DNA of 64,000 nucleotides, from positions 1 to 64,000 of IMG/VR virus record IMGVR_UViG_3300008050_000036, one strand, 5' to 3'. The notes under the pieces were generated by a model. That model searched no databases. It was not told the DNA's origin and worked only from the letters and a program-made list of their open reading frames with translations. This document shows, piece by piece, positions 36,045 to 63,760 of this stretch (positions within the stretch are counted from its first letter, which is position 1; the number at the start of each line of letters is the position of its first letter). The DNA is from a virus. The position numbers and the translations under genes are program-made.

Positions 36045-37202
36045 TCAACTAAGGTCCCGTATCTTCCCGCTTGCTTTGAAAAAGGTGCAAGTCAATTCGC
36101 CCATTGTGTGAAACATTCCCATCTGACCAAGACGGTTAATACCGAAGGGGTCGCCGGTTTCAATACCTGATTCGTGGTAAAGTGTTGGTTTTGCGGTAGT
36201 GAACCATTGGTAGTCAGTATCTAAGAAGTAAAGACGGCTTGAACCACCGCTTTCTTTGTGAACATCTTTGGAGGGAATGATAGGCACACCGTTGTAGGTT
36301 GCTACCATGAATCCACCTTGAATGCCCGGAACTCCCTTTACGCCATTGACGCCGGGAACTACACGCTTCATCTCAACAAATCGTTGCTGAGGTTGTAATA
36401 ATTGCTGGATTGTTTCTAATGTGTCATATCCAGTTAAGATAACCTTTGGTTGGCCTCCTGCTTCCCATACACTGCGGAACATTCCGTCAAGCATATTAAG
36501 AGTAAGGGGGCGTTCTGCACCGGCTGTTCCTGCATCTACTTGGGCATCATACCATGAGGCTGAACCTGCGCTTCCACAGGTTAAATTATATATATCGTGG
36601 TCTGTTAATGCGCTAACATCACCAAAGGCTGCGGTTTCAACAAAGGATGAAGAAGTCACTCGGTCAAGAGATTCAAAGCCATTACCAGCAGGGGTGTCAA
36701 TATCTTCAAGAAGCATCTTGTTCACATGTTCTGTGTGGTGCTTTGCCATTTCCATCTTCATTACTGCTCTTGCATCACCAAGTCCATCATCTTTGTCAGC
36801 GAGGAACATTGCGGTTTCAGAAAGGTCAAATGTGTGAGCGATTGTCTTTGGCTTGGTGCTTACATGCTCAAAGGTAGGCTTACTGGTTTCAGGTAGGGTT
36901 GCGTTTTCACCAACACCGCCGCCTTTGTTAAAGTCAGGCTTTGCGGTAGTGACTCTCCAACCACTCTTTTCCCACGGTTTCTTAGGTAGGATTGAGAAGG
37001 CATTGAACTCTTGGTTCAACTGCGACCAAACTTTACGACCAAAGATTGCTTGGTATGTGCCGCTGGTGCTGCTCATTAAAGGTGCGTCTGCTTTCAAAAG
37101 GTCTGTCCCACTATAAGACCAAGCACCTTGTCCTGTGCCAGCCCCATAGTAAAGGCGTTCCATATCTTCAATCGTGCGTAAATATCCTGTGCTTCCACTC
37201 AT
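36045..37202 (-). CDS. Major capsid protein, HK97 fold
   Basis: Forms the icosahedral shell. A 385-residue protein directly downstream of the prohead protease. Features typical of the HK97-type capsid protein include an N-terminal arm, the helical stretch FGRKVWSQLNQEFNAFSILP, KKPWEKSGWRVTTA, the Gly-rich strand GGQPKVILTGYDTLETIQQ and the late loop MVATYNGVPIIPSKDV, which is the usual 'peripheral' motif of these proteins. Start ATG 37202 is behind AAGGAG; a TTG at 37211 is also in frame. The sequence ends in beta strands. Confident from gene order and these motifs. Confidence 0.85.
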   Translation of the reverse strand: MSGSTGYLRTIEDMERLYYGAGTGQGAWSYSGTDLLKADAPLMSSTSGTYQAIFGRKVWSQLNQEFNAFSILPKKPWEKSGWRVTTAKPDFNKGGGVGENATLPETSKPTFEHVSTKPKTIAHTFDLSETAMFLADKDDGLGDARAVMKMEMAKHHTEHVNKMLLEDIDTPAGNGFESLDRVTSSSFVETAAFGDVSALTDHDIYNLTCGSAGSASWYDAQVDAGTAGAERPLTLNMLDGMFRSVWEAGGQPKVILTGYDTLETIQQLLQPQQRFVEMKRVVPGVNGVKGVPGIQGGFMVATYNGVPIIPSKDVHKESGGSSRLYFLDTDYQWFTTAKPTLYHESGIETGDPFGINRLGQMGMFHTMGELTCTFFKASGKIRDLS

Positions 37203-37215
37203 TTTTTTCAACTCC

Positions 37216-38550
37216 TTATTGTGTTCCTCCGAACATGGCTCTTTGGCCTAATTCCTCAAGTGCTTTCCACCCATCAACTCCGTTGCCTAAAGCAGCGTAT
37301 TCTTCGTGGGTAGGAACTCTAATGTCGGTTTGTGCGGGAACTGCAACTGCTGACTTTTGAATCTCGGTGTTTTGTGTTTGGAGATTTGCTATTTCTGCTT
37401 TCAAAAGGTCAATTTGTCCTGAATAGTCTTGTGATTTCTGAATATCGAGTGCTTGTTGTGTTTCTGCTTCATAGCGGTCATGCCATTCTTTCTCAACAAG
37501 TGCTTTTACTGCTTCTTCATCACGGATTGCTGAGTATGCACCATATCCACGCTCAAGAGATTGTGGGCTTAGGTCAAGACCTTGCTTGATAACTTGTCTA
37601 TTACCACGGGCAGGGTGTTGATTCATACCGGCAACTTGGGGTTGCTTGATAACATATTTATTGGATTTGGCATTTGGTAGGCTTGGTGCGCTTGCGAGGG
37701 TAGCATCTTCGCCACTACCTACTAAGTCACCCTGTCCTCTATGCCCATAGCCATGTTCACCATCAACGCCAGCCATATATGCTTTACCAAGACCGAAGTG
37801 GTCCCGAAGTCCGTTTAGATTAACACCTTGTTGGTGTGCAAACTTCTCAAGGGTATCAATGTAGGCAACGGCGGCTTCTTCGCCCTTACTTATTTCTGTT
37901 TGTTGTATTTCTTGTGTTGGTTGCTCAACTGCGGGTTCGTTTGTTTCCATATGCTTGTTAATGCGAGATAGTGCATCTCGGATTTCAGTTAGGGTTTCTG
38001 CTTGTTCATTTGTCATATTATCCACTTCCATTTTTAATAGTGTATATCCTGATTCGGGGTTAATCCCCTTTTTACACAAAGTAATTTCATGCAACTCCAT
38101 ATCGGTTATTTCGCGGTGTGAGCCGTGTTCTTCCGTAGTCTTATTTACTCGGAACAAGGCTTGGCCTCCGATAGAAAATGCTCGCAATTCACCACTGCGA
38201 ATCTGTTTTTGCACTTCACGTGCTTTTTCAATATCATCTCTAATGCGGCATATAACAAAGAGTCCATGTTCATCAACATTTGATTTCCATACCCTGCCGT
38301 CTGAATCAGTAAAGGAGTCAAGAACCTCACCAACTTGAATACCGCTATGTGCTAATTGCACATTACGATAAGACTTGTTAGCCATAAAACCATTAAAGGC
38401 TTTCTTTAATGCAGATACAGGGATTCTATCTCCCTGCTTATCTACCATATCAACAGAAGCATACCCCGCTACTACAAGGTCTTTATCAGCGACAGACTTC
38501 AAAATAAAGTCTTGACCGATAGCCGACCATTGAGAGGTTGCGCTCGCCAT
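37216..38550 (-). CDS. Prohead maturation protease with scaffold-like C-terminus
   Basis: Cleaves capsid and scaffold proteins during maturation. The HK97 (U35-type) protease domain shows VVAGYASVDMVDKQGDRIP, H68 in QLAHSG, and S126 in LRAFSIGG (numbered from ATG 38550), matching the catalytic His-Ser pair. After about residue 150 the chain becomes coiled-coil and Q/E-rich (LTEIRDALSRINKHMETN, IDLLKAEIANLQTQNTEIQ), which fits a fused scaffold. It lies between the large ligase-like gene and the capsid gene. The start is uncertain: ATG 38586 (12 residues longer) overlaps the upstream stop, and neither start has a clear ribosome-binding site. Confidence 0.85.
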   Translation of the reverse strand: MASATSQWSAIGQDFILKSVADKDLVVAGYASVDMVDKQGDRIPVSALKKAFNGFMANKSYRNVQLAHSGIQVGEVLDSFTDSDGRVWKSNVDEHGLFVICRIRDDIEKAREVQKQIRSGELRAFSIGGQALFRVNKTTEEHGSHREITDMELHEITLCKKGINPESGYTLLKMEVDNMTNEQAETLTEIRDALSRINKHMETNEPAVEQPTQEIQQTEISKGEEAAVAYIDTLEKFAHQQGVNLNGLRDHFGLGKAYMAGVDGEHGYGHRGQGDLVGSGEDATLASAPSLPNAKSNKYVIKQPQVAGMNQHPARGNRQVIKQGLDLSPQSLERGYGAYSAIRDEEAVKALVEKEWHDRYEAETQQALDIQKSQDYSGQIDLLKAEIANLQTQNTEIQKSAVAVPAQTDIRVPTHEEYAALGNGVDGWKALEELGQRAMFGGTQ

Positions 38551-38578
38551 TAAACTGCTTGACTTAGTGTTATGGTAT

Positions 38579-41500
38579 TTAAGCATTGGGCGGTTGAGGG
38601 GGCAAAGAAGCGGGGATAGGCACTTCTTCTTCTTCTTCAAGAGGAACATTTACATTTGCTTCTTTTTCAGCCTCATGTTTTGTTTTTTGAGGGTATCTAA
38701 GAATAGCGGCCGGTCCTTCTACTTCTAATTCCCCTTCAATTTCTTCCCCTGCATCATCAGTAGTCTGTAATGTAATGTGTAATGGTTGTTTAGGCATATC
38801 GCCTTCTTCTGATTGGTAAGGGTCATAAAATGGGGTGGCTTCTTCATCAACCAATTCAGTAGGACCTCTTGGTGCATTATGAGCATCCATCATACCTGAC
38901 CAGCCCCCACCAGTCATAGCCCCTACTGCAATTGCAGAACTAATTGCCTTTTCTTCAATCATTTCATCGTCAAGTGCTTCATTAACAGACCATTTACCAC
39001 CTTCGGTTTGTTCTAAACCATATTCGCCTCCAAAGTCATTAACCATACTACTTGTTAATCCCTTAACTTTTGTTTTCAATTCAGATAGGGTCAGGGCCTC
39101 ATCATTATCCATAAGGTGTTGCTTGGCCTCAGTCAATTTTTCTTGAGAAGCACTACCTTCACCACTTGGCTCTAATAATGAGGCTTTAGTGAATAATAGG
39201 GTATTCAACGTGGGTATCGTTGGAGGATAGGGGGTAATCTCCTTAATATCATATTTACAAAGGTGGGCTGCTACTGGACCCCACAATTCGAATTGATGTT
39301 CAGCGTGGCGACCTAATGGGTTATTTGGTTTGATTGATTTAAGAGTTAATGTTGAACCATCCCACTCACTATTTACCACAACTGGTGAAGGGTGTCCTGT
39401 GTATTCTAATATCACACTACCGTTCCTACGGCTTACATGGGGTATAAGCCCCTTTGTAATATCATCACCATTTACAGTATATAATATCCATTTGTGGTGA
39501 ACTTCTTTACCTTTCATAAATGTAGAGGTAGCATCTCGCAACCACACATCACCTTTGATACTATCAATACTTTTCTTTAGCCCGTCTTGGTCCGTGAACT
39601 TACAATTAGCGGGCATAGGGAATGATACCCCTTCATCTGTTTCATACATTGTTCGCAAAAGATTTAACCTATCTTCAAGCATTTCCATGTGTATATCTTC
39701 ATCCTTATGCACTAATAGGTCAATAGCCCTAAACTTTTTGCCTTTTAATACCCCATCAAAAGTGCAATTACCTTCTTGTTCTCTAATGCCTTTCTTTACA
39801 ATATCCGGTAATTTTATTTTGCGCCCTTCTTTGTTAATACCTTTTACTTCATTACCTTTCTTAGAAATAATAACTCTCTTGCCTTCAGGCTTTTCCTGAA
39901 TAACCCAATTACCACTAAAGCCCTTTAAGTCGCCTATATCATGTAAATCATAGATTGTGTGCGCTGGATTGATTACCTTTCGAAAAATACCAGTAGGTTC
40001 ATAATCGTCTGATTTCCATATATCCCCACTAACTATTGGTGCATGGCCTTCATCATTTGTCACAAACAATGCTGGTATATTGTTTTGTTTGGGGGTGGTA
40101 GGATAAGGCAAAATTGTAGGATTTACCATATTTACATGTCCTTCATGGGCGGTTCTTTGTAGAGTATCAAACGATTTATCCTTTATGTCAAAACGCACAT
40201 TACCACCTTTACGGTCATAATTCCAAGCAAGGGTGGTGGGCATTTTATGGCCCCAAGCATCTTTATCGCCGGTTAGATAGACTGGTGGGGTTGTTGCTTT
40301 TGAAGTAGGGTGAACTGGACCAATAGGCACATGTTGTTGATTCAAGCCCCCCGCCAACACGCTTGGGGCTATTGACTTTAATTTCTCATGCCCATTACGC
40401 ATCAACTGGTAATTAGCGGCTTGGGCTAATTGTTGTATATTGCCTCTCGCTACTGTGACTCCCCTTACATCAGAAGGGTGAGCATTAAACAAATCCGGAT
40501 TATCCTTAGTCAAAGCAATAGCCATTTCTTGCATTACTTTGCCGAGGTTTTCATCGGTCTTTTCATAATGGTCGTTGTGATAAGCGTGGTATTGTTCATC
40601 TCCGGGGTGGCGTTCTTGGCTCATACCATTACGAGGCATCCCCATATCACTATGGGCAGATACAATACGACCTAATGGTTGAGTAATAAGTGCCTCCGAG
40701 GGAATAATCATCCGTTTGCCACTACCTTCAACTTCCGAAGGGTGTAAATGATGATGATTAGATACTGACCCCCAAAGACCCCTACGAGCATTAAATGATT
40801 TAACGCGTGGGTGTTCAGACCCTACCTCCCATCCAGTAGCAATTGCAGAACGATGAGGGTGTCCTTTCATTGATTCGTGGTTAGCGGTTTCGGGGAAGTA
40901 TGATGAACCGCTACTGTGGTAAGCATCTTCACTATCATTTAATGGGTGGTTTTCATTTTTTAAGAAGTCCAGCATATCGTTGCCTACCCACCCATCAAAA
41001 GCATCGGGGTATGATTGCTTCATTACAGAAATGAGAGAATCGTGCCCACGCCCTACACCTCCCCAATACTGAAAGGGATTCCACCAATGGTGGGTATGAG
41101 AAGGCGCAATACCTCCATTTTCTTCAACAAAGGGCGATTTGAAATGTTTTAGGTCGCTATTCATATCATCTGCCGATACCGGACCATGACGGTCTGATGC
41201 CCTTTGCCACCAACGGGCAATAGGTAAGAATCGCTCAAAGTAATTGCGTTTTGCTCGCCCCCAAGACATACCAGTAGCGGCGGGCATATCGTTAATTATT
41301 TTCTTTGCGGCGGGGCTATTAGGTGATTCGGTTTGACCTAATTTACGCAACATTCCCATAAATGCTTCATTTTGGTCAGGGGATTGCCATTCTGTCCCAA
41401 AAAGATATGAAAGCATACCTAAGTTATTCCATTCCTTCTTTTTTACATCAATATATTCATCATCCGAAATAAATGAGTGACGGGTTTCTTTGTCATTTTT

Positions 41501-43774: not shown

Positions 43775-44203
43775 TCACTCCGTTTGTGGTCGCCAAATGT
43801 TAGATGAGCGACCCATACGCGATACACCAAGAACTACTGCCCCTTCTGACCCGTCATAATCGCTGGTTGTTTCTTTGTGAATACCTATATTGCCAAGAGG
43901 TTGTCCCTCTCCTTGAATTACATTTTCATCACTTTTTGCGATAGCAGCAGAAGCCTCCATTGATTTAACGAGGTTTAAGTCGCGCTCAAGGATTTCTAAT
44001 GCGTTTTTGGCTTCTGTAATATGTTTCGCTACATCATCACTATTGTTATGTGCAATAGCAATTTGCATGGCCTCCATACTCGCCAAAGCCCTACGAGCCA
44101 TTGGGTCCATTTTCTTTATCAATCCAAAATCAAGGAAGCCTTCTACCATCTCAACCATATACTCCCAAAGCGCACTATTTAATGAAGGTTGCCTCTTAAT
44201 CAA
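43775..44203 (-). CDS. Hypothetical helical protein after the portal gene
   Basis: A mainly helical protein of up to 142 residues (ARRALASMEAMQIAIAHNNS, KHITEAKNALEILERDLNLV) ending in a charged tail that contains RMGRSSNIWRP. The only codon at the front is TTG 44203, overlapping the portal stop; ATG 44155, with GGGAGT just upstream, is an alternative that removes 16 residues. Position immediately after the portal suggests a portal-associated or scaffold-like role, without direct evidence. Confidence 0.5.
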   Translation of the reverse strand: MIKRQPSLNSALWEYMVEMVEGFLDFGLIKKMDPMARRALASMEAMQIAIAHNNSDDVAKHITEAKNALEILERDLNLVKSMEASAAIAKSDENVIQGEGQPLGNIGIHKETTSDYDGSEGAVVLGVSRMGRSSNIWRPQTE

Positions 44204-46010
44204 TGCCTAAACGATTATCTATGTCCTTAATTTTTCTATCCACATTAGATATTCCCGGTGGGTCTAAATCCCTTGCATCACCTTTACTTTGCCCAAACTT
44301 AGTAGAACCACCCCATGCTTTCTTTTTATGGTCCGGCGACCTACCACTACCCTTTCTATGTAATGCGTTTTGGTTCAACCCTATACTACGTAGTGGTGGT
44401 AATTCCGTTCCCATTGTGGTTCGCAATGAACCCGAAATAGGAACAGAACCATGAATAGGGTCAGTGACATTCCTTTTCATAATATCCATCATTGAAGGTG
44501 GCAATACCCATTCGCTTGTTTGAACTGGGGTTGGGCCTCCGCCATGCTGACCTGAAGGCATAGGTGGCCCCTGTCCTCCCTGTTCGGGTGGTGCGGCTGG
44601 TGGGGGTGGTGCTTCTTTGTAATCAAATCTTAAACCAGCCACTTGTTCATCACGGAGGTTAGCCTCATAGCCCGCTTGTTTCATTTGCATCATGTTTCTA
44701 ATTTGCATTTCATCCTTACGCATAAGCAAAATCTCATCTTCTTCTTCATGTGGTGTCAAATCAATAGTCCATTCCGTGATTTGTAATGCTTCAAGTAATA
44801 GAGGGAATAATCTAAAATTATACATATTTTGACTGGCGGCTAAAGTGCGGTTTGTCACTACAATTTGCATACCTTCGTTATTCAAACCACCGCCCGATAC
44901 ATCATTCATAAACACATTAGAAATACCGTAAAACGATGAAATGCGTTGGCGTATGTCGTCTTTGATGGGGATATACTGCAATTCTTCCAGTGTGTCCATC
45001 ATACGGACATATTCAATGCCCCCACGCCCACTTTCTGTTTCAACCCCAATTGTAGGTATGTGTTGAGGGTCACGCTCAAGATGTTCCTGTATGTTTCGTG
45101 CCGTTCTCTCCACCGTTTCAAGATTGGATGATTTGATAACCATTACACCTCTTGGCATTCTGCGCTTTTGATATGCTGCATATACATAATTATCCATAGC
45201 AATTAGAGTATTGACTTGTCGCCATAATGTAGCAACGGGTGAACGGCCATATAATTTAGATGGCGACCATTTACTCAAATGTATTACTTCGCCTTCGGTA
45301 TAGACCTGCCCTTTACCTACACCTGCAAGATTCATATAATGAATAGGCACAACAGGCAAACCTGTTTTTGGGCATTTTTCATCTTTATCACTTGTGCGGA
45401 ATGACCTATCTAATAGACTGGTATATTGTTTTCCTCCCCTTATGCCCCGCTTATCACTAACAATACGCATAAAAATTGGGTCTGCTCTTGTAATTTCTTT
45501 TATTCTGTAAAATTGCGGTTTGCCTGAAGTAGGGTCCACAAAGTATTCTTTGGTGAGAATAATGTAGGCATCATCAACGATATTCAAGTCCATTTCAATT
45601 TCACGCAATACTTCAAGAAAAGATTGACCCATTCGGTTGTCATGCTCAAGCAATACCTTTGCATATTCTAATTGTCCTTTGTCTGCGGGGCGCACTTCAC
45701 CTTCACATTCAATACAATTATCCACTTCTTTTTGGTATTCTGTTTCGCATTCCCTACACTTTACCACAAAATTAGATTTCCAATCCCACCCTTTACGGAA
45801 TGTTTCGGTAGCCAAATGGTTAAGAATAGAGCGTAATACTAAGCATTCATAAGCCGCAGCGTATAGTGCAGGTATTGTAATTCCCTGTAATAATGCCGGT
45901 TCTTGCACACCACTGGTGAACAAAGGCATTTCAGGGGTTGGTGTGCTATGGCGTTCCATATCCACCCCAAGAGCAGAAAAGAGCCGTTCAATTCGCTTTT
46001 TATCAACCAT
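44196..46010 (-). CDS. Portal protein with zinc-ribbon insertion
   Basis: Forms the dodecameric DNA gate. A 604-residue protein with the usual portal order: YAAAYECLVLRSILNHLATE, GQSFLEVLREIEMDLNIVDD, the connecting region VIHLSKWSPSKLYGRSPVAT, the helix PVATLWRQVNTLIAMDNYV, and the C-terminal crown helix EMQIRNMMQMKQAG. It is unusual in having a zinc ribbon, C85-xx-C88 and C99-xx-C102, inserted in the N-terminal third where most portals have none. The tail is P/G-rich. ATG 46010 overlaps the upstream stop. Assignment is secure from gene order and these helices. Confidence 0.85.
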   Translation of the reverse strand: MVDKKRIERLFSALGVDMERHSTPTPEMPLFTSGVQEPALLQGITIPALYAAAYECLVLRSILNHLATETFRKGWDWKSNFVVKCRECETEYQKEVDNCIECEGEVRPADKGQLEYAKVLLEHDNRMGQSFLEVLREIEMDLNIVDDAYIILTKEYFVDPTSGKPQFYRIKEITRADPIFMRIVSDKRGIRGGKQYTSLLDRSFRTSDKDEKCPKTGLPVVPIHYMNLAGVGKGQVYTEGEVIHLSKWSPSKLYGRSPVATLWRQVNTLIAMDNYVYAAYQKRRMPRGVMVIKSSNLETVERTARNIQEHLERDPQHIPTIGVETESGRGGIEYVRMMDTLEELQYIPIKDDIRQRISSFYGISNVFMNDVSGGGLNNEGMQIVVTNRTLAASQNMYNFRLFPLLLEALQITEWTIDLTPHEEEDEILLMRKDEMQIRNMMQMKQAGYEANLRDEQVAGLRFDYKEAPPPPAAPPEQGGQGPPMPSGQHGGGPTPVQTSEWVLPPSMMDIMKRNVTDPIHGSVPISGSLRTTMGTELPPLRSIGLNQNALHRKGSGRSPDHKKKAWGGSTKFGQSKGDARDLDPPGISNVDRKIKDIDNRLGID

Positions 46011-47277
46011 TGATTATATCCTCCAACCAAGAATCTAAAGTATCAATAGGCACATTCCATGCTTTGAGTAATGTGGTTTGGTGTTGTAAGTCGGCATGTT
46101 GAAATGCTAATATGCGACCCGCATTTTCATTTCCTTCAAGAGAAGCAAGAATTAAATGGGCTTCGGTTTTCTTTTTATTCAAAAATGGCAAAGCGAGATT
46201 TGCTGCCTTTATCACGGCTTGGTCGCCCTCAATCACAAATTGCTTGCCCTCCCACATAATACCCTCTACACCCAATTCCCTTTTTAGCACAACGGTATAA
46301 TCTTCTGCTCGCTTTGAATTAAAAGGTAAAAATAAACGAGGTGAACCAGTGGGTGACATTTCCACCCTACCTTCAACCTCCCATAAATTACCAATAAAGG
46401 AGTCATATTCTTTTAAGAAAAGTGGGGGTTTATTTGTGCCATAATATAATGTCCTGTCGTCATTTTTAGTGCCTTTACCTACTACTTTAAGGTCATATAA
46501 ATAGCCATAGGCTTTTATCAATGAAGCAACTTCTTGTGTAGTGCCTTTTACCCCATATGAACTAATGGTTTGGGCATTCATGTGACCGTTTTTTGTTAAA
46601 ACCTCATTACATGCCTTAAGGATGGTTCGCTCTCGCCTACTTATCCTATTTTCAGCATTAAGGCGCATATCCCATGTTTTCCAAATCTCATCCACTTCTT
46701 CATCAGTATTGGCTTTCTTTAGAGCCACTATGGTTTGGCGTAATGGTAATTCTAAACGGTCAGGGTATTTAGCCAATAAATTATAATCGTTATCTTGAAG
46801 GCGTAAAGTAATTTCATCATTATCATACCACCATTCATATTGCTTCAAAATAGCCCGTTGTTCAGCACGTAATAATGCTAATACACTTGGTATAATCTCA
46901 TGTTCACCACCTTTTTCTAATAATTCTACTAATTTTTCACCCCTTATACCGAAAGTGTCTTTGAAGTATGTTTTTGATAATTGGGGCGGAATAGGGGGTG
47001 CATCGGCAATAACACCGGGTTGAGTGGGTGTGCTTTGTTGTGCATTACCTTGTAATCCAGTTATGTCAGAACCTTTAGTGGCTTGAGATGGTAAAGGAGT
47101 ATTGTCTTGACCCTGCGACTCTTGTTGGTTGTTCATATCTTCCATAGCCTGTGTCAATTCTTTTTCTTTTTGTTGAACCTTCAATGAAGCGGGGTCAGTT
47201 CCTCCGCCCGTTGGTAATAACTTCACCAAAGAATCATTTATTGTTTTTATGTCCGGATTCCATTTTATTTGTTTCAT
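46003..47277 (-). CDS. Protein with LAGLIDADG-like C-terminal domain, unknown role
   Basis: A 424-residue gene between terminase and portal. The N-terminal 100 residues are Q/P/T-rich. Then a helical region and a winged-helix-like part (RRERTILKACNEVLTKNGHM, SSYGVKGTTQEVASLIKAYG). The C-terminal 100 residues read like a LAGLIDADG nuclease domain: SFIGNLWEVEGRV for the signature helix, and LPFLNKKKTEAHLIL for the lPyLxxKxxqAxL motif. A single glutamate pair in LWEVEG could supply the metal site. There is no intron or split gene, so it is not an obvious homing nuclease. Start ATG 47277 (ATGA overlap with the terminase) is preferred. The resemblance is motif-level and unconfirmed. Confidence 0.5.
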   Translation of the reverse strand: MKQIKWNPDIKTINDSLVKLLPTGGGTDPASLKVQQKEKELTQAMEDMNNQQESQGQDNTPLPSQATKGSDITGLQGNAQQSTPTQPGVIADAPPIPPQLSKTYFKDTFGIRGEKLVELLEKGGEHEIIPSVLALLRAEQRAILKQYEWWYDNDEITLRLQDNDYNLLAKYPDRLELPLRQTIVALKKANTDEEVDEIWKTWDMRLNAENRISRRERTILKACNEVLTKNGHMNAQTISSYGVKGTTQEVASLIKAYGYLYDLKVVGKGTKNDDRTLYYGTNKPPLFLKEYDSFIGNLWEVEGRVEMSPTGSPRLFLPFNSKRAEDYTVVLKRELGVEGIMWEGKQFVIEGDQAVIKAANLALPFLNKKKTEAHLILASLEGNENAGRILAFQHADLQHQTTLLKAWNVPIDTLDSWLEDIING

Positions 47278-48704
47278 TCCGAACCACCCCACCCTAATCT
47301 TTTAGTCCATGCTTCGGCATCCAACATAACTATATTATCTCTATACTCTTTTGTTGCTTGAACTGCTAATGCTAATGCAATTACTGTGTCATCGTGCTTG
47401 CCGAGCGACTCCATCTTACCGTTTGGCAACAATGTGAACATTGACAACTCATTTAAGAGGTTATCCATGTGTCGGCGTGTTGCGCCTTCATCTTTGTATG
47501 GTAATGCCAAATGCCGTTGTTCGAAATGTAATTGTAAAGTGTGCATTACTGCTTCTTTACGCATACGGCTCATAGTGAATGGTTTTATGGGTAAATCACT
47601 TATTTCTTTTAATACTTGATGAAATGCTTGAGCGAAGTTATTTGTTTCTAATTCAATAATAACTGGGTTATAGCGGGCATTCAATTCAATAACTTTGTCA
47701 ATTTGAGAACTAAAGTCCATCCCCTTTTCGTGGTGCATCCATACCACCCGTTTATGGCGGTTAGCATCCATAGCAATAACAACCATACAAGTGTAATCGG
47801 CTTTTCTATCAGGGCTAATCGCAGGGTCCCACCCAATATAATAATTAACTTGTTCATCATCATCACCATCCATAAGAGCGTTGAACTCCAAAGCCCTGCT
47901 GGTATCTTTACAAGACTCTAACATATCTTCAGGGAATAAACTCGATTCACTGGCTATCGGCTTACATAAGTATTCTCTTGTGAAAGCAATAGAAGTCATT
48001 TCGCCCCTACGAGTCTGCAAGGCTTCTAAAGACCAGCGTTCAGGCCAAAGTGGATTGCCACTTTTTTCATCAATGGCGGGATATTCCCCCACCCAATAAC
48101 CTTTCAAACTCCTTAATTCTTGGTAAAGGTCAGTATATGAAAAAGGTGTTCCTACAATACATAATTGTGCGGTGTGGTGAAGCACTGGTAAAAGGGCAGT
48201 ATAGAACCAAGTAGCAATATGGGCTAATTGTGTAGCGGCTTCGCTTGAAAGTATATCGTCAAGCACTACAATGTCGGGGTGCGCCCCACGAACCGCTTTA
48301 CCCACAGACATAGCATGAATACTGGATTTATTAGTGAACTTGAACTTCTGTTTATTCCAACCTCTTTTTGGTTTAAGGTGCGCTAAAGCAGGAATAGACA
48401 TTATCATTTCATCCATTTTAGCCATGTGTTCAATAGACTGGTGCTGACTGTGTGAAAAGAAAAGCACTTCTGTTCCGGGGTTATAGGCTAATTTCCATAA
48501 CAAATAACATCTAAAAAAAACGGATTTGCCGTGGTCGCGGCTCGCTATAACGCATACTTTGGTATTGTTTTCTGCCGCATCAAACCATTCTTTATGAAAA
48601 GAAGCCAACTGAAAGGCACAAATATCTTCAAAAAAGTATTGAAAATCACGCCGCCCCATATCCCAATCTACTTTATTGGTGAGGTCTAAAACAGCATCCG
48701 ACAT
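47274..48704 (-). CDS. Terminase large subunit
   Basis: Powers DNA packaging and cuts the concatemer. A 476-residue protein. ATPase motifs: Walker A ASRDHGKS (residues 54-61), Walker B DIVVLDDI (about 144-151). The RNase H-like nuclease has GWDPAIS with D293, then VIIELETNN (E351) and KHDDTVIALAL (D438), the three acidic clusters. The order ATPase then nuclease and the length are typical for TerL. It lies head-first to the portal in transcription order. Good ribosome-binding context before ATG 48704. Confident. Confidence 0.92.
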   Translation of the reverse strand: MSDAVLDLTNKVDWDMGRRDFQYFFEDICAFQLASFHKEWFDAAENNTKVCVIASRDHGKSVFFRCYLLWKLAYNPGTEVLFFSHSQHQSIEHMAKMDEMIMSIPALAHLKPKRGWNKQKFKFTNKSSIHAMSVGKAVRGAHPDIVVLDDILSSEAATQLAHIATWFYTALLPVLHHTAQLCIVGTPFSYTDLYQELRSLKGYWVGEYPAIDEKSGNPLWPERWSLEALQTRRGEMTSIAFTREYLCKPIASESSLFPEDMLESCKDTSRALEFNALMDGDDDEQVNYYIGWDPAISPDRKADYTCMVVIAMDANRHKRVVWMHHEKGMDFSSQIDKVIELNARYNPVIIELETNNFAQAFHQVLKEISDLPIKPFTMSRMRKEAVMHTLQLHFEQRHLALPYKDEGATRRHMDNLLNELSMFTLLPNGKMESLGKHDDTVIALALAVQATKEYRDNIVMLDAEAWTKRLGWGGSE

Positions 48705-48710
48705 AAAACA

Positions 48711-50003
48711 TCAACTCTCTTGCCATCCTTGAGGCAAGAGGCTATAATTAACATTGGGTTCTTCTTCTTGTGTCTTACCCATAAATTGTTTTAGCATACC
48801 TTGAGGTAATAATGATGTGTCGGCTGAGGCTAATTTATCTTGAAACTCAGGGCTAAAATTGCCTCTTGATTCTTCGTCAAACATATGAGAAGGTCGGGCA
48901 TTCATAAACTCCTTTGGTAAATCATCATCATTTTTACTAATTTTGAAGTTATCGTGTATAGCGAATGCGTTTGGATTATCAAATGGATTTGCGAATGGGT
49001 TTTGTGCTACGGACCAACTTTGAGCAAAGGCACTTTTATCCACTTCTGTTTCTTTAACACCCTCCACCCTACCATTCGGCTTTAGATGCGCTACTCGCTT
49101 TGCTTCTTTCCTTTTTCCTCGCCTTTCTTCAGCAGCATTTTTTTCTTCATCAGGAGTTATTGTTTGTTGAATGGGGCATTCTTCCTCTTTTTTTGTTTCT
49201 GATGGTGTTGCTGCTGGTGGTGGTGTTGCTGCCGGTGGTGTTTCTGTTGGTGTTGCCGGTGGTGCTGCTGCTGGTGGTGTTTCTGTTGGTGTTGCCGGTG
49301 GTGCTGGTTCTTGAGGGGGTTTCAGCCTATTCATAACTTTTCTCGCGTCACTTGCATGAAGTGTGGTTTCTATGTTATTATCTTTAGGAGGGTTCAGCCT
49401 ATTCATAACTTTTCTCGCCTCATTTGTGGTTTCTATGTTATTATTTTTTATTTTTGTTTTACGGTCAGGTGGTCGTTGAACGGGTCGTTGGAGAGCGGGG
49501 CTACCGGTGGATGCCTCAACTGTTGGTGTTTCTGCTGCTCCGCGCCGCAGGGCTAATAAACGCTGTAAAGCCGCATGTCGTGTGTCGTCTGATACATTTC
49601 GCCCTCTACCACCCCCAAAACGCCCAGTAATGGCGTTTTTCACTTTTCCGGCTATTCTCCTTAAGGTGTGTGGTGAGCCTTGACCTTCAGTAGTATTCCC
49701 AACCGCCGCCCCAAATCTTCCTAATAATGATGGGCCACGTGGGGTTTGTGGTATTGGTTTATTTTGGTGTAGTGCATTGAAGCGGGGCCACCGGCCACCT
49801 TCCTCTTTGTTTTCAAGATATTGTTGTAAATGAGGGTAGCGAGGGGTGGGTGGGGCTTTAGACAAAGGAACATTTGCTTGTTCTTTTTGTAAATTATCCC
49901 ACACATAATTGAAAATAATATCAGAAGATGGTTCTTTACGCAATTGTGTTTTGCCCACCATTTCACTACGGGCTTTCAATAGCAAGTCGTCATATTTATC
50001 CAT
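48711..50003 (-). CDS. Low-complexity virion-module protein with SWSV motif
   Basis: A 430-residue protein upstream of the terminase. The N-terminal 45 residues are helical and charged, then come Pro/Ala/Thr-rich repeats: two NNIETT...ARKVMNRL-type units and repeated ATPTETPPAA. Towards the C-terminus is the variant of the shared motif, SAFAQSWSVAQNPF, followed by ANPFDNP and a final conserved-looking tail (NYSLLPQGW). No domain recognised. Start ATG 50003 follows GGTGTTAATT. The nucleotide repeats behind the Pro/Ala tract are described separately. A virion or packaging-related, largely disordered role is inferred. Confidence 0.55.
   Translation of the reverse strand: MDKYDDLLLKARSEMVGKTQLRKEPSSDIIFNYVWDNLQKEQANVPLSKAPPTPRYPHLQQYLENKEEGGRWPRFNALHQNKPIPQTPRGPSLLGRFGAAVGNTTEGQGSPHTLRRIAGKVKNAITGRFGGGRGRNVSDDTRHAALQRLLALRRGAAETPTVEASTGSPALQRPVQRPPDRKTKIKNNNIETTNEARKVMNRLNPPKDNNIETTLHASDARKVMNRLKPPQEPAPPATPTETPPAAAPPATPTETPPAATPPPAATPSETKKEEECPIQQTITPDEEKNAAEERRGKRKEAKRVAHLKPNGRVEGVKETEVDKSAFAQSWSVAQNPFANPFDNPNAFAIHDNFKISKNDDDLPKEFMNARPSHMFDEESRGNFSPEFQDKLASADTSLLPQGMLKQFMGKTQEEEPNVNYSLLPQGWQES
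49234..49312. repeat. 39-bp tandem repeat encoding Pro/Ala/Thr-rich linker
   Basis: Two near-identical copies of GGTGGTGTTTCTGTTGGTGT-type sequence start at 49234 and 49273, period 39 bp (13 codons), followed by a degenerate continuation. On the coding minus strand they encode PPATPTETPPAA units in the 48711-50003 protein. The period is a multiple of three, so copy number can vary without frameshift. Typical of slippage or unequal recombination in disordered linkers. Confidence 0.6.
49321..49440. repeat. 72-bp direct repeat in the same gene
   Basis: TTCAGCCTATTCATAACTTT starts at 49321 and again at 49393, 72 bp apart (24 codons). The flanking GTGGTTTCTATGTTATTA also recurs, so about 60 bp of each unit is conserved. 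On the minus strand each codes for NNIETT...ARKVMNRL plus PP. The second copy has diverged slightly, so it is an older duplication. Confidence 0.6.
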
Positions 50004-50014
50004 AATTAACACCT

Positions 50015-52776: not shown

Positions 52777-54518
52777 TTTTTACCCACCAAACCTATTTCT
52801 TGGGCGGCTGCTACATCACCGAAGCGATAAGCAGAAGTTTCTTCTTCACGAATTAAAGATTGGTCGCCGGGCGCAGTAGCAACTTCTTTGTTTGCTTGAC
52901 CTCCCCGTTTAGCCGCTGAACCTAATTCGGGAGTGGCTTTCTTCAATCCCTCTACAATTTTGAGCAATTTTTTCAAATCCCGCTTCAAAGCCAATATATC
53001 AGACCTGCTAAAGTTTTTCCAATCTTTAGCAGATATTTGCATATCTGCTCTTTTTTCAAGCATTTTGAGGGGGTCGCCCCCTAATGGGTCGCCTATAAGT
53101 GAACCACTTTCTTTGTTTTTTCCTTTGAAATGTGACAGTGAAGTGCCTTTACTGGATGATGGTTGAGAAGGCATTTTAGTGCCTTTGCCCCCCAAACCTA
53201 TTGTTTGAACTTTCATTGCATCAGTTAATCCCCCTGCTGCCCCACGGTGTCCCGTCATATGGCGTGGTAATGCCCCCGTTTGACGAGCCATTTTCTCATT
53301 AGCCAATTTGCGTTGATATGCTATTGGGTCACGGAGTCTAAGGGGGATTGCCTTTGACCGCGGGTTGCCCCCCATCATGCGCCGTGGGTGAACTTGCCGT
53401 TTTGTTTCACGCGATACATTTTGTTCAGCCGCACCAGCCCTTCTTGCAGTAATGCCTTTTATGTCACGGCTTCCTCTTTTTTTCTTATCTTTCATCTTAC
53501 GCTTACGCTTGCGCTTGCGCTTGGCTTTAGACTTTTTTTCTTCTTCATCAGATTCTTCATCGGAGTCATACCTCCGACCACGTGTTTTGCGTTTTCCTTT
53601 TACAATGTCACCAATGAATGGTGGGTCTGCCGAAGCGTTTTTCTGTTGCCAATTATTACTTGATTCCTTACTATTTCCAAAATCATAAATCCCTGCATCT
53701 AACTCATTGATTCGCCCAGTATCATCATAATTAGGGTCATCTACAAAATCATCAGGTAATTTGCTGGCGGCGGGAACAGCCGCATGTGCTGGTGTAAATG
53801 CAAGCCATTTAAGTTTGTCAAGAGGGGGTGCATCTTTCAATTTTTTATATGGTGCTAAATAATCATTAGCCAAATTAGTAAATTGTTCGGGGGAAGGCGC
53901 GCTACCCTGTTCTTCTAAAAAACGAGCAATCGTTTCACCATCAACTGCGCCTCCTACTACTGCGTTTTTATTACCATCACCTGCAATAAACCCCTGACCA
54001 AACCTCCGTGGGTTTTTATCATATTCTTCACGTAATCGCTCTATTATATGTTCTTCTAAAGGATTATCCTTAACAATAGACCAAGCATCTTCAAAGGCAT
54101 CATTACTACGCCCAAAAATCATCCCCGGTCCTTCTCTTGAAATAGGTCCTACATTAGCCCCTGTTGAAACACCAATACCCCTTAAATGCCCCATATCTAC
54201 CCCAAGACCACTTTCTAATAATTCGCTTTCGCCATTAGTCATTGGTGTATTATCAATAGTCGCCTCAATTTCTTCGGGGTCAAGACTAATGTGTGGTATG
54301 CCGCCTTCTAATTCTTTGAAGGCTCTTTCTTTACGTGCTTTAGGGTCCCGTTGCTCAATACTTTCATTTGAAGCGGCTTCACGGTTATGATGTGATAAAC
54401 CATCAGCATCTTCATTGGGGTTCACATCATAGTCACCGACCATTTCACGGGGATGAAAGCCCCCAGTGAACTCTTGGACCCTAAGTGTATCATCAACACC
54501 TCTTGGTGATTTAGGCAT
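52773..54518 (-). CDS. Highly charged protein with AFEDAWSIVK motif
   Basis: A 581-residue protein. The recurrent motif NDAFEDAWSIVKDNPLEE is at about residues 136-153. A middle stretch of acidic (DSDEESDEEEKK) and then very basic residues (AKRKRKRKRKMKDKKKRG, near 335-365) follows, then a region rich in R and G, and a C-terminal helical part (FSRSDILALKRDLKKLLKIV). There is no Cys cluster. The acidic/basic blocks suggest interaction with nucleic acid or with a charged partner, perhaps inside the capsid. Start ATG 54518 lies behind AGGAGTT. Function unknown. Confidence 0.55.
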   Translation of the reverse strand: MPKSPRGVDDTLRVQEFTGGFHPREMVGDYDVNPNEDADGLSHHNREAASNESIEQRDPKARKERAFKELEGGIPHISLDPEEIEATIDNTPMTNGESELLESGLGVDMGHLRGIGVSTGANVGPISREGPGMIFGRSNDAFEDAWSIVKDNPLEEHIIERLREEYDKNPRRFGQGFIAGDGNKNAVVGGAVDGETIARFLEEQGSAPSPEQFTNLANDYLAPYKKLKDAPPLDKLKWLAFTPAHAAVPAASKLPDDFVDDPNYDDTGRINELDAGIYDFGNSKESSNNWQQKNASADPPFIGDIVKGKRKTRGRRYDSDEESDEEEKKSKAKRKRKRKRKMKDKKKRGSRDIKGITARRAGAAEQNVSRETKRQVHPRRMMGGNPRSKAIPLRLRDPIAYQRKLANEKMARQTGALPRHMTGHRGAAGGLTDAMKVQTIGLGGKGTKMPSQPSSSKGTSLSHFKGKNKESGSLIGDPLGGDPLKMLEKRADMQISAKDWKNFSRSDILALKRDLKKLLKIVEGLKKATPELGSAAKRGGQANKEVATAPGDQSLIREEETSAYRFGDVAAAQEIGLVGKK

Positions 54519-54966: not shown

Positions 54967-55344
54967 TCAAAATATAACCCTTACACTATTCCCACAAAGG
55001 GGGCATTCATAATACGGTTCAACGCCTCCCGTTGCCTTTCTTGCCACTTTTTTCATTGGGTAATTGTGACAATTAGCGCAATCAACCTTGTTTGAATGTG
55101 GTCGTGGCATTTGAGCCATCAAGTGTTCTTGTTCATCTTCACCTTTCAGCACAGACCAGCCTATGCGGGATGCTCGGTCATTTGACTTCTTTTTATCAGA
55201 ATCAAACGCCAATTTATCTTTATGGTGTTCACCTTGCTCAAAATCTCGGTCACGGTTTGCTGTATCGGTTTCATCTTTACAAGTAGGGCAAAGGCCGCTT
55301 TCACACTCCCTACATTCTTCATTACAATCTTCACATTTAGCCAT
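54967..55344 (-). CDS. Zinc-ribbon protein with SRIGWSVLK motif (cluster member 4)
   Basis: A 125-residue protein. It has an N-terminal Cys cluster (C4, C7, C11, C14, C19, C22: CEDC, CREC, CPTC), then a charged region, the shared motif RASRIGWSVLKGE (residues 57-69), and a C-terminal zinc ribbon (CANC and CPLC). It contains the DNA repeat shared with its three neighbours and starts at ATG 55344 behind GAGAGGGATTGAAG, three bases after the previous stop. Function unknown; the Cys clusters suggest two metal sites around the motif. Confidence 0.65.
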   Translation of the reverse strand: MAKCEDCNEECRECESGLCPTCKDETDTANRDRDFEQGEHHKDKLAFDSDKKKSNDRASRIGWSVLKGEDEQEHLMAQMPRPHSNKVDCANCHNYPMKKVARKATGGVEPYYECPLCGNSVRVIF

Positions 55345-55346
55345 CT

Positions 55347-55487
55347 TCAATCCCTCTCCGTTGTTCCGCAAGTTCGGCATCTGCGTGTGCCATCTTTTCT
55401 TTCAACCATGCGTTTATTATCACAGCATTGGTCTTTCACCACAGACCAACCTGTGCGGAATGCTCGGTCATTGGACTTTTCGGTCAT
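55347..55487 (-). CDS. Zinc-finger mini-protein with AFRTGWSVVK motif (cluster member 3)
   Basis: A 46-residue protein. MTEKSND is followed by RAFRTGWSVVKD (residues 8-19), then CC and CRTC, a possible zinc knuckle, with the end TTERD. ATG 55487 overlaps the stop of the upstream mini-gene (ATGA). Nearly the smallest protein that still holds motif plus knuckle, so it shows the minimal unit. No other function visible. Confidence 0.65.
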   Translation of the reverse strand: MTEKSNDRAFRTGWSVVKDQCCDNKRMVERKDGTRRCRTCGTTERD

Positions 55488-55627
55488 AGAATACCCCCCC
55501 AACAATCGTCACCGCAACATTCAGAACACATCCCACATTCTAAACAAGAAGCATCTTCATCACAATCAGGACATTTTCTCGCTTTTGCTTTCACCACAGC
55601 CCAACCTATGCGGAATGCTTCACCCAT
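55484..55627 (-). CDS. Cys-rich mini-protein with AFRIGWAVVK motif (cluster member 2)
   Basis: A 47-residue protein: the motif EAFRIGWAVVKAKARK is near the N-terminus (residues 3-18), followed by eight Cys (CPDC, CLEC, CSECC, C) ending GDDCWGGIL. ATG 55627 follows TGCTTGAAG, two bases after the upstream gene's stop. The Cys-rich C-terminus could bind two metal ions. Probably translated from the same message as its neighbours. Confidence 0.65.
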   Translation of the reverse strand: MGEAFRIGWAVVKAKARKCPDCDEDASCLECGMCSECCGDDCWGGIL

Positions 55628-55629
55628 CT

Positions 55630-55911
55630 TCAAGCACCCCCTTTTGGTATGCAATCAGGATTAGCACAAGCACGATTTCTGCTCGGCCCTTGTGGTAATC
55701 CACATCTATTACAATTCCATGTCCCTACCTTTCCTTTTCCTGTTTTGGGGTCTGTTCCGTGAGGATGACCTTTCACCACAGCCCAACCTGTGCGGAATGC
55801 TTTGCTAACATCACACTTCGGGCAATAAGATTCAGAAATACCACCGACACCACCCCCTCTATGGGTTTGGGTCATTGGCCCTTTACATTTTCTGCACACC
55901 TTTTCACCCAT
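55630..55911 (-). CDS. Zinc-ribbon protein with AFRTGWAVVK motif (cluster member 1)
   Basis: A 93-residue protein starting MGEKVCRKC. It has a first ribbon of CRKC (C6, C9) and CPKC (C30, C33), then KAFRTGWAVVKGHPHG (residues 38-51), then a second Cys group (CNRC at 67-70 and CANPDC at 82-87). So the motif sits between two metal-binding units. ATG 55911 is chosen because it overlaps the stop of the gene before it; a longer upstream reading frame to 56019 has no ribosome-binding site. Function unknown. Confidence 0.65.
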   Translation of the reverse strand: MGEKVCRKCKGPMTQTHRGGGVGGISESYCPKCDVSKAFRTGWAVVKGHPHGTDPKTGKGKVGTWNCNRCGLPQGPSRNRACANPDCIPKGGA

Positions 55912-56614
55912 CTTCAAGCACCCCCGCATCAGCCAAAGCCTTACGCATAACTCGCCATTCATCAGGCGATTTCTCGGAGAAATGGGCTTGAATAACCGTA
56001 AGAACTGATACTTGTTCATTAGAACCTATACTTTCAGCCTTTTCGATGTATTCGGCAATATCTGTTAATGTATCGCGTATTTCGCGGTGCATTTTTACGG
56101 CGGTGTCTAATCCTCTATAATCCAGTATGCCTTCGTCATTTCTTTCTTCTTCAAGCATACTTACATGAGAATTGAATAAAGAATTGAGGCGTTGGAGGTT
56201 ATTTTCGGTTTGTATCATAGCCCCTCGCACACTACTCAAAGCGGCTGGCAATACCTCCATTTCCACTTGCCGTTGGATAATGGGTGCTGTGTGCATTTCA
56301 ATGTGGTGTTCTACATTACTTGAGGTCATTTCCAAATCAAGTGCCATATCAGCAGCACTAACCAAACCATTCATTACGGCTTCCTCAATGTTAGCCCTTT
56401 CAGGGTGTGTGCATAAAGGGCATTGTGAATTACTATTATTATGATATTCACCGGAATGTCGCCTCATATGACGGTGAGCAGTGCCTTCTGCCCATATTTT
56501 ATTAGCATCTAAATCAACTACATCTAAAACACCAGTGCGTATGCGTTCTTCGTAGCCATCCCGTTCAGGGTGCATACAAAAGGGACAATTGCGCCTTGTC
56601 TTACGACCTACCAT
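55904..56614 (-). CDS. Protein with two Cys/His repeats, possible small terminase subunit
   Basis: A 236-residue protein with two tandem copies of a zinc-binding unit: CPFCMHPERDGYEERI...HRHMRRH and CPLCTHPERANIEEAV...VEHHIEMH. Each has CxxC plus two histidines, with a helix between, like the zinc-containing HTH regions of phage small terminase-like proteins. A coiled coil follows (NNLQRLNSLFNSHVSMLEEE, MHREIRDTLTDIAEYIEK). Such DNA-binding N-terminus plus oligomerising helices fits a small terminase, but the large subunit lies 7 kb away. ATG 56614 follows no clear ribosome-binding site. Confidence 0.45.
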   Translation of the reverse strand: MVGRKTRRNCPFCMHPERDGYEERIRTGVLDVVDLDANKIWAEGTAHRHMRRHSGEYHNNSNSQCPLCTHPERANIEEAVMNGLVSAADMALDLEMTSSNVEHHIEMHTAPIIQRQVEMEVLPAALSSVRGAMIQTENNLQRLNSLFNSHVSMLEEERNDEGILDYRGLDTAVKMHREIRDTLTDIAEYIEKAESIGSNEQVSVLTVIQAHFSEKSPDEWRVMRKALADAGVLEDG

Positions 56615-62125: not shown

Positions 62126-63760
62126 TCACCTGTTCCTGTTAAAATGCCCTAAAACGGCATCAGCCATTGCCCTTGCTACTAAGGGATTAACGGCATTTCC
62201 TATTCCTCGTTGTGATTGCGCTGCGGTTGTATCGCCTAACTTATAATTCATCGGGAAGTTCCCCAAAGCCAAAACATCTTTTTGACTCAATGGCCCTACT
62301 CCTAAATGTCCGGGTATATTACTACTGGTTAATGACGACATATGGGTATCTATTGGTTTAGTGCCATGCCATGAATACCCCTTCTTTTCAGAAGTCCACG
62401 GCGAGGGTGTATGCCCGCCACCCCTACCGGGAAATGGTGTGCCATGATGTGTTATATGAGGTTCTGTTAATAATTTTGTGGCAATTTTTGGGTCAATTAC
62501 TCCATTAGCGAGCAAACCTAAAATATAATCAGATTTACTTTCAAAATTATCGTGTTCTTCTTCCTCCATATGGGGCAAAAAGTCTTTTACTGTGTTCCAA
62601 TTTGACCTAAACTTTTGTCCGGGTGCTTCATCAAATGGTCTTTCAATGTCAATAAGTTGGTCTAATCCATAAAATCTATTACGTTGTTGTGCGCTGCCAA
62701 AATCAGCAGCATAAGTAGGCTTGCTTCTTTCTACCATCCGTTTAACCCATGCGGGAGGTTGCTTCCATTTTTGCCGACCTGATGCTAAAATGGGTTCTTT
62801 GATATTGGGGGTTTGTTCAAAGGCTGATACAAATTGGTTTTTACCTAATTTACGGCGGAGTTCATTCGCAAGGTCAAAGGTATAATTCTGTAATAACATG
62901 GTTTGAGCATGGTCTTTTTCTCCCGGCCTTGCATTACTACTATTGATACATGGTGCTGATTGAGATAAAAATACTGGCCTACCGTCTGCATGGTCTATCA
63001 TGCGCCCTGCCAATTCTTTATGTCCTAATTCGCCCTCTCCCTCGCCCAATGTCGCTTCAATTAACTCATGGTCGGGAAAATTGGCTCTAAATCGTTCTGC
63101 GGCGATTGGGTCATTTTCAACACCAATGCCCGGTTCTAAGCCACTCATCTCTAATCCAACATCAGTGCCACCCCACCCTGAAAATGTAGTATTGCCTACT
63201 ACATTATGGGGGTTTTTTTGTTTTTTGGGGCGGTTCATAAGGTTATGATAAGCAGAATATATTTCAGGGTCTAAATAATCTCGCCCCTTGAGTAAAGTGT
63301 CCCATGCTATTTCAAACGCATCTTCTGAGGCATAAAAGCCCATTTCACGTGCTTCTTTACCCTCCAATCCGGCAAACTTGCATTTATCCCATTGGTCCAA
63401 TACTTGGCGAGCATAAAAATGAAACTCCGTTGGTGGTAATTCAGGCTTACGGCTTGTGACATTATTTTGATAGAACGGGCCGGGTATATCACCTGCAAAA
63501 TCACGCAAAGCCGCTTCCAATTCTTCACAACTCATTGCATCATAGCCTTCTATAATTTTTGATTCATAGCCACGGGGTTGAATATCTGATTGCGCCAAGA
63601 GATTATACCACATTTCCCTTGCTTTACCACAACATGGGTCATTCCCCATGTCTATCTGCTCAAAATCAGGGATAGTATCTTCATCGGGTAATAGAATATC
63701 ATTAACCCGTTCCCGCAAATTACGTGGTTCAATGGCGGAAGCCTCTAAATCACCTACCAT
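62126..63760 (-). CDS. DNA cytosine-C5 methyltransferase, divergent, with N-terminal extension
   Basis: A 544-residue protein with C5-methylase motifs in order after residue 190: motif I TTFSGWGGTDVGLEMSGLEP, the cofactor acid in GIGVENDP, motif IV with catalytic-type C271 (SQSAPCINSS), then FEQTPNI at 314-320 where ENV is normal, QQRNR at 358-362 (motif VIII), and IGNAVNPLVARAM (motif X). The target-recognition part is short. The N-terminal 190 residues are not part of the family and carry the recurrent motif DAFEIAWDTLLKG (148-160) and CCGK. So it may combine methylation with another function. Catalytic cysteine is present; the ENV change raises doubt about activity. ATG 63760. Confidence 0.8.
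   Translation of the reverse strand: MVGDLEASAIEPRNLRERVNDILLPDEDTIPDFEQIDMGNDPCCGKAREMWYNLLAQSDIQPRGYESKIIEGYDAMSCEELEAALRDFAGDIPGPFYQNNVTSRKPELPPTEFHFYARQVLDQWDKCKFAGLEGKEAREMGFYASEDAFEIAWDTLLKGRDYLDPEIYSAYHNLMNRPKKQKNPHNVVGNTTFSGWGGTDVGLEMSGLEPGIGVENDPIAAERFRANFPDHELIEATLGEGEGELGHKELAGRMIDHADGRPVFLSQSAPCINSSNARPGEKDHAQTMLLQNYTFDLANELRRKLGKNQFVSAFEQTPNIKEPILASGRQKWKQPPAWVKRMVERSKPTYAADFGSAQQRNRFYGLDQLIDIERPFDEAPGQKFRSNWNTVKDFLPHMEEEEHDNFESKSDYILGLLANGVIDPKIATKLLTEPHITHHGTPFPGRGGGHTPSPWTSEKKGYSWHGTKPIDTHMSSLTSSNIPGHLGVGPLSQKDVLALGNFPMNYKLGDTTAAQSQRGIGNAVNPLVARAMADAVLGHFNRNR

Follow-up and report, generated by a model that had tools for sequence, protein, structure and literature searches.

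A portable amphipathic segment on unrelated late-strand proteins of one tailed-virus lineage may act as a capsid-targeting tag

The ADP-ribosyltransferase Alt is among the proteins that phage T4 packages, and for the T4 internal protein (IP) III packaging requires no more than the first 10 residues (PMC9026906). In the sections of Iyer et al. 2017 available to us (PMC5512222), polyvalent proteins are multi-domain proteins made up of small effector-like modules (ADP-ribosyltransferases, ParB and methylases), come from late genes, include portal and MuF fusions, and are proposed to be packaged and split into units. Extracts on other phages describe the antirestriction proteins DarA, DdrB and Hdf of phage P1 as head-packaged and injected, with some cut N-terminally by the prohead protease (PMC12810830, PMC5512222), and several ejection proteins of the giant phages SPN3US and phiKZ as cleaved by the prohead protease (PMC5694885, PMC10052503). 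Here we analyse a short peptide segment, termed the tag, that recurs in proteins of the IMG/VR virus record IMGVR_UViG_3300008050_000036 (73,605 bases, labelled G000) and of its relatives; bases 1-64,000 of that record are referred to as the window. The tag is a selected, portable amphipathic segment of one tailed-virus lineage, carried by more than 100 unrelated, mostly small proteins encoded on the late strand. We propose, at a probability of about 0.6, that it is a capsid-targeting or packaging signal working like that of the T4 internal proteins, a reading based on sequence comparison and analogy. One pointer to packaging is the combination of ADP-ribosyltransferase-like cargo, as in T4 Alt, with portal fusions and late genes, as in polyvalent proteins.

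Form, selection and portability of the tag

The original prediction, made from the window, had listed eight copies of the segment in reading frames with otherwise different domains and suggested that it acts as a portable tag forming an amphipathic helix. All eight lie at or inside those reading frames, and the recurrence proved far commoner than proposed, with seven further tagged genes beyond the window (at 68-73 kb of G000) and more than 300 in relatives. The core motif, [AP]-[FM]-x-x-A-[WFM]-x-[LIV]-[LIV]-K, spans about ten residues. Its helical amphipathicity is strong, as had been suggested (mean hydrophobic moment 0.53, against 0.31 in shuffled tags), and in the predicted structure of one tagged protein the tag is a helix preceding the folded domain. 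In a set of 247 tags, the final K was conserved in 99% (the search pattern permitted K or R); 220 tags started within residue 25, 16 started beyond residue 60 and 3 lay near the C-terminus. N-terminal copies take the form M[TS]AF[DE]xAWxLLK, with AFxxAFxLLK as another form, and copies inside long proteins read P[MF]DxA[MWF]RLLK, with E immediately preceding 82 of 127 internal tags. C-terminal copies also exist, for example NAFEQGWAVLKQGGQ. No Pfam or PHROG family accounts for the tag segment, so it is not the conserved helix of one known domain family.

A count of four-residue gapped patterns made blind to the motif placed AFxxxWxxxK and AFxxAW as the commonest in G000, and related patterns ranked first in G001 and G005, relatives that had been picked by their terminase and not by the tag; the tag pattern was not top-ranked in G002 or G004. 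With a score-matrix threshold of 12 bits, we found the tag in 109 of the 1,266 genes called in 11 related records and in none of the shuffled proteins, which indicates strong enrichment in related viruses. Because this matrix was partly trained on the same records and 6 of the 11 had been located via the motif, we regard the motif-blind count as the unbiased evidence. At the DNA level, a strict degenerate pattern gave at least 119 matching stretches in viral contigs, against no match in 84,980 prokaryote genomes, where about two chance matches were expected from a simple base-count estimate. On a host origin of the tag, a candidate that we did not retain, zero matches against about two by chance show only that the pattern is not common in that set.

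Among 219 distinct tag DNAs, the third codon positions at A1, F2, A5 and K10 were only 44% identical. Selection thus acts on the tag as protein, with F, A, W and K kept constant over randomised third codon positions. We also considered a DNA repeat or start-site signal, which holds only for four mini-genes of the window; elsewhere, the codon thirds are randomised and tags are also internal or C-terminal. We are nearly certain that the tag is real and portable.

Outside the tag, 341 tagged proteins fell into about 130-170 unrelated groups, the number depending on the cut-off. The claim that the carriers are unrelated thus stood overall and failed for half of the window copies: four of the eight lie in paralogous mini-genes with shared DNA repeats (54967-55911), so the eight are not eight independent families, although about five are. 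Portability is also evident from 18 module families in which the tag precedes the same domain both in free proteins and within longer multi-tag proteins; when free and internal modules were paired, 67 of 95 pairs were in register within three residues. The cassette consists of the tag and its module. One protein of 1,191 residues has four internal tags, and tandem runs reach up to 13 tagged genes.

Three long proteins (L208:43-3618, L210:8472-11075 and L228:9969-12443; 824-1,191 residues) carry four PMDIAMRLLK-type tags each, one per module, mostly with [GS]E just before the tag. In tagged proteins of loci L036-L154, M and A each account for 20% of the residues directly after the tag K, and P for 26% of those at the second position (K-[MA]-P). 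An M right after the tag K may be the original start of an untagged protein.

Recognisable cargo was rare, with only about ten Pfam families matched by 150 tagged representatives. These matches include D12 methylase, zinc ribbons and an HNH-like nuclease, PHROG matches among tagged proteins include ParB-like proteins and a phosphohydrolase, and two tagged modules are DUF6321 and DUF5872. We saw no metallopeptidase family among the 150 representatives. The largest readable tagged family has a nearly invariant H-G-[TS], an NAD-binding motif, directly after the tag. It was modelled with a predicted local distance difference test (pLDDT) score of 78, and its best Foldseek match was KptA/Tpt1 (E = 5.6e-4, probability 1.0, with a template-modelling score of only about 0.35). 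Its profile matches all belonged to the ADP-ribosyltransferase superfamily, except two weak unrelated ones. The largest recognisable cargo family is thus predicted, from model and sequence, to be ADP-ribosyltransferase-like. A mixed query of tag plus ADP-ribosyltransferase against a phage collection returned nothing useful.

Link to the head and rival explanations

Tagged genes lay almost exclusively on the strand of the capsid gene (105 of 109, against 553 of 1,157 untagged genes, or 48%; odds ratio 29, p = 9e-27); the test uses mechanical gene calls, and adjacent genes are not independent of one another, yet the bias is very large. According to profiles of the International Committee on Taxonomy of Viruses (ICTV), the morphogenesis and replication modules of magroviruses run in opposite directions (PMC12999244, PMC10768690). 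With strand as a proxy for expression, the bias suggests that tagged genes are co-expressed with the head genes.

The portal protein offers a further link. In the window virus and closely related viruses, it has a C-terminal extension of about 90 residues, which matches residues 13-103 of a protein in another virus (L129:9966-10286; BLAST E = 2e-10). Other viruses have a portal without the extension, and there the next or a nearby gene encodes the same ~90 residues right after the K of a tag. By alignment, the F and W of the tag were absent in 8 out of 8 fused portals and present in 10 out of 10 separate forms; the fused junction keeps only a hydrophobic-hydrophobic-K end (ILK or like, and IMK in the window virus). 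The simplest reading of these alignments is that the tag may deliver to the head what the portal fusion achieves covalently. The sets of terminase large subunits, portals, capsid proteins and proteases themselves contained no scoring tag.

In the proposed mechanism, the F-xx-A-W-xx-L face would bind one partner inside the prohead during head assembly, putatively a scaffold or core protein or the inner face of the portal or capsid. Any tag-bearing protein would then be enclosed in the head, and the enclosed cargo would be injected with the DNA and act on the next host cell. Among the partners named in the original prediction, which had also included a host factor, the scaffold or capsid interior fits best as the putative partner.

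It is possible, at somewhat less than even odds, that the tag is also cleaved after its K by the Peptidase S78 prohead protease; such a cut would release the cargo and divide multi-domain proteins into their modules. The protease gene was present in 28 of the 29 tagged records searched, and the window protease is similar to the annotated prohead protease of HVTV-1 (E = 9e-23). At fused junctions without a scoring tag, an [ILV][ILV]K-like end was found just before the module in 36 of 51 cases, against 6% at random places, although the 51 junctions are not independent, several coming from one domain family, which counts against this step. The capsid protein has LLK/AD or a like sequence (LLK or ILK) near residue 40 in 28 out of 28 relatives, a candidate maturation site that, from the alignment, may be common to druskaviruses. 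The HK97 capsid protein is cleaved at K103/S104 (PMC10275583). The kept junction K, the capsid LLK/AD, the HK97 precedent and the S78 gene together make a cut after the tag K plausible. In the HVTV-1 capsid protein (L156:25862-27235), SK/AD aligns with the capsid LLK/AD.

A wider picture can be put forward only tentatively. It would be a universal cargo-loading code in a whole marine archaeal virus order, in which a core-binding helix with a built-in protease site stands before each delivered module; the effector cassettes, together a large and rapidly changing arsenal, would be swappable, encoded as separate genes or as polyproteins split in the head.

Several observations weigh against the packaging reading or the proposed cut. 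The strand bias is evidence of late expression at most, and a late non-virion role would look alike. The portal fusion could be plain fission or fusion of neighbouring genes. The [ILV][ILV]K pattern occurs at both ends of the protease domain in 27 out of 27 proteases, and we set these places aside as self-cleavage sites since a pattern of this kind is common in the outermost strands, first and last, of S78 proteases; they may be structural, as conserved beta-strands of that fold. Records also differ in how many tagged genes they have (1 to 19), and tagged proteins are slightly acidic, whereas the T4 internal proteins are basic.

Among other possible functions of the tag, docking to a non-virion partner is unlikely but the most probable. 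Here, the tag would gather late DNA-linked proteins on a host or viral replication, transcription or nucleoid protein, in keeping with the methylases, ParB-like, HNH and zinc-ribbon proteins among the tagged and with the frequency of short linear docking motifs in biology. However, the replication-module families identified in these genomes (PolB, TFIIB, AAA clamp loader and SNF2) were absent among the 150 tagged representatives, the tagged genes are on the late strand and the portal module indicates the head. A virus-encoded partner would be available in the Cpn60/TCP1 chaperonin, which is present in 27 of the 29 tagged records, G000 included, and chaperonins are able to bind amphipathic helices; the tag would then be a client signal aiding the folding of many small late proteins. 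We consider this improbable: in the records compared, the chaperonin and capsid genes are on opposite strands, the capsid protein as the obvious client is untagged, and very small zinc ribbons would hardly need folding help. No chaperonin was seen in a 93-kb record with 18 tagged genes (G025), which may be incomplete.

Proteolysis could also account for part of the pattern, given that the [ILV][ILV]K end is retained where F and W are gone and that tags stand between the modules of multi-domain proteins. A degron or maturation site with no targeting role is nevertheless very unlikely, as free single-domain proteins retain the F-xx-A-W helix, and a cut there would do no more than remove a leader. 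The tandem runs and the DNA repeats across the four window mini-genes would, for their part, fit a relic: repeated copying of a single ancestral gene, with replacement or divergence of the 3' part, would have left a common start that no longer has a function. The chances of this are slim: the fixed residues amid randomised codon thirds, the C-terminal and repeated internal tags, and the loss at the portal junction all indicate active selection.

Virus lineage and features of the window

A capsid protein of the window type was encoded in 42 of the 50 tagged records, at 61-88% identity, and three of the remaining eight encode a window-type portal. A second DNA pattern, for the PMDxAMRLLK form, matched 41 stretches, and 23 of 34 records with this pattern encode the capsid protein. 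As far as could be seen, the tag marks one virus lineage. Relatives were also chosen independently of the tag, by the terminase large subunit. The window capsid protein shares 33% identity with those of HVTV-1 and haloarchaeal druskaviruses and matches archaeal viruses only; its best named relatives are the Druskaviridae, which the ICTV gives as more distant classified relatives of magroviruses (PMC12999244, PMC10768690). Inheritance of the tag from druskaviruses was rejected, HVTV-1 being without such a motif.

An HK97-fold capsid protein, terminase, portal and S78 prohead protease are present, as expected for the order Magrovirales, and 100-kb relatives (G007 and G015) encode PolB, TFIIB, an AAA clamp-loader-like protein, Cpn60 and the S78 protease. 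Such a gene set has been described for magroviruses of Poseidoniales (PMC12999244, PMC10768690). Morphogenesis and replication occupy opposite strands, which also agrees with the order. From gene content and the literature, the tagged viruses are probably Magrovirales-like viruses of Poseidoniales, abundant archaea of the ocean. A genome scan for the host with the ERCC4-type nuclease found no relative.

Tag copies and head genes of the window. All features lie on the minus strand; scores are those of the tag matrix.
Feature	Coordinates	Strand	Description
Tag AFNQGWSVVK	7198..7227	(-)	Residues 12-21 of 130-residue protein 6868-7260; score 24.8
Major capsid protein, HK97/SU10 type	36045..37211	(-)	PF17236; lineage and late-strand marker
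Prohead protease (Peptidase S78)	37216..38649	(-)	PF04586, E = 9.9e-10; candidate processing enzyme
Portal protein	44196..46010	(-)	PF04860; last ~90 residues are a separate tagged protein elsewhere
Terminase large subunit	47274..48704	(-)	PF17289, E = 8.9e-10; 14 loci found
Degenerate tag AFAQSWSVAQ	49002..49031	(-)	Residue 328 of 433-residue protein 48711-50012; score 10.2
Tag AFEDAWSIVK	54069..54098	(-)	Residue 141 of 581-residue protein 52773-54518; score 28.5
Degenerate tag ASRIGWSVLK	55144..55173	(-)	Zinc-ribbon mini-protein 54967-55380; score 8.9; DNA repeat D1
Tag AFRTGWSVVK	55434..55463	(-)	Zinc-ribbon mini-protein 55347-55505, probable start 55487; score 20.3; repeat D1
Tag AFRIGWAVVK	55589..55618	(-)	Cys-rich mini-protein 55484-55654, probable start 55627; score 19.1; repeats D1 and D2
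Tag AFRTGWAVVK	55771..55800	(-)	Between zinc ribbons, 55630-56019, probable start 55911; score 20.0; DNA repeats
Variant tag AFEIAWDTLLK	63287..63319	(-)	One extra residue; DNA cytosine methylase 62126-63760; score 11.8

Comparison with relatives bears on several of the window copies. The domain downstream of the tag in the 130-residue protein recurs within longer proteins of relatives. The degenerate tag of the 433-residue protein, whose gene is just upstream of the terminase gene, is backed by AFNSAWSVLKDPFANPF in G001, where AFNSAWSVLK precedes the same PFANPFDNPNAFA; distant relatives of this protein have the tag near the N-terminus instead. In the 581-residue protein, the position of the tag is kept in G001, G002 and G005. 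The tag of the methylase (PF00145, E = 1.1e-12), DAFEIAWDTLLK, belongs to an extra-residue form, AWDS[IL]xK, that recurs in relatives, and the degenerate copy RASRIGWSVLK in the mini-protein 54967-55380 is backed by its paralogues.

The repeats that the original prediction had described across four adjacent mini-genes were recovered as D1 and D2. The region 54967-55925 is an array of four zinc-ribbon or Cys-rich mini-genes made by duplication, and relatives have other tagged mini-genes at the matching place. Repeat D2 spans the start region (GGGGGTGCTTGAAGATGGGTGAA, minus strand), so the start signal was duplicated together with the tag. Elsewhere in the window, the GP88-family protein at 60910-62118 (PF17338) has relatives in other tagged viruses with a tag near the N-terminus, and the N6/N4 DNA methylase (730-2073) and ERCC4/Hef-type nuclease (3733-4440) are untagged and lie on the plus strand, in a replication-like part of opposite strand. 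Just beyond the window, G000 encodes the Cpn60/TCP1 chaperonin (64015-65472, opposite strand) and a run of genes with tags at or near the N-terminus (68294-73166, locus L031), in which one protein of 450 residues has two additional internal PMEVxMRLLK tags.

Significance and comparison with known systems

These viruses are abundant in the ocean, and most of their genes are orphans. Should the tag mark proteins delivered by the virion, hundreds of orphan genes would be brought into one functional class. The tag would then predict the first proteins to enter the cell, so that injected effectors of uncultured viruses could be listed from sequence, and it would point to ADP-ribosylation and DNA-targeting effectors directed against Poseidoniales. 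The T4 capsid-targeting principle would reach archaeal viruses at a far larger scale, and the short peptide could serve to load archaeal virus heads with cargo. Even without a mechanism, a selected 10-residue peptide on more than 130 unrelated groups in one virus lineage is unusual. The original prediction knew of no described role for the segment, and our search of a partial literature library likewise found neither a role nor a description of the tag.

Polyvalent proteins, as the available sections present them, resemble the tagged proteins in their multi-domain build, effector-like modules, late genes and portal fusion. Those sections name no shared short tag, whereas the modules of the tagged viruses are mostly separate genes and the same peptide is on every module; unlike polyvalent proteins, the 150 tagged representatives include no metallopeptidase family. 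In the extracts seen, the P1 proteins DarA, DdrB and Hdf are large individual proteins for which no common short tag is described, and SPN3US and phiKZ are bacterial jumbo phages for which no shared portable helix is noted.

The closest likeness is to the capsid targeting sequence (CTS) of T4 IPI-III, also a peptide of about ten residues common to otherwise unlike proteins. In both systems, the tagged genes vary between relatives and an ADP-ribosyltransferase, a predicted one in the tagged viruses, is among the known or putative cargo, and targeting and processing would fall in adjacent residues, as in the CTS (PMC9026906). The two have no evident sequence relation, however, and T4 cuts after E, whereas here the cut would be at most after K. 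In T4, packaging has been proven; for the tag, it is what sequence comparison would predict. Since the tag is not strictly N-terminal, we class it as working like a CTS and not as a T4-type CTS. The T4 internal proteins are a handful of phage proteins; here, more than 130 groups in probable archaeal viruses carry tags that are also internal and C-terminal. Thus, the kind of signal is known from T4, but its scale, its use in multi-module proteins and its presence in probable archaeal viruses appear new.
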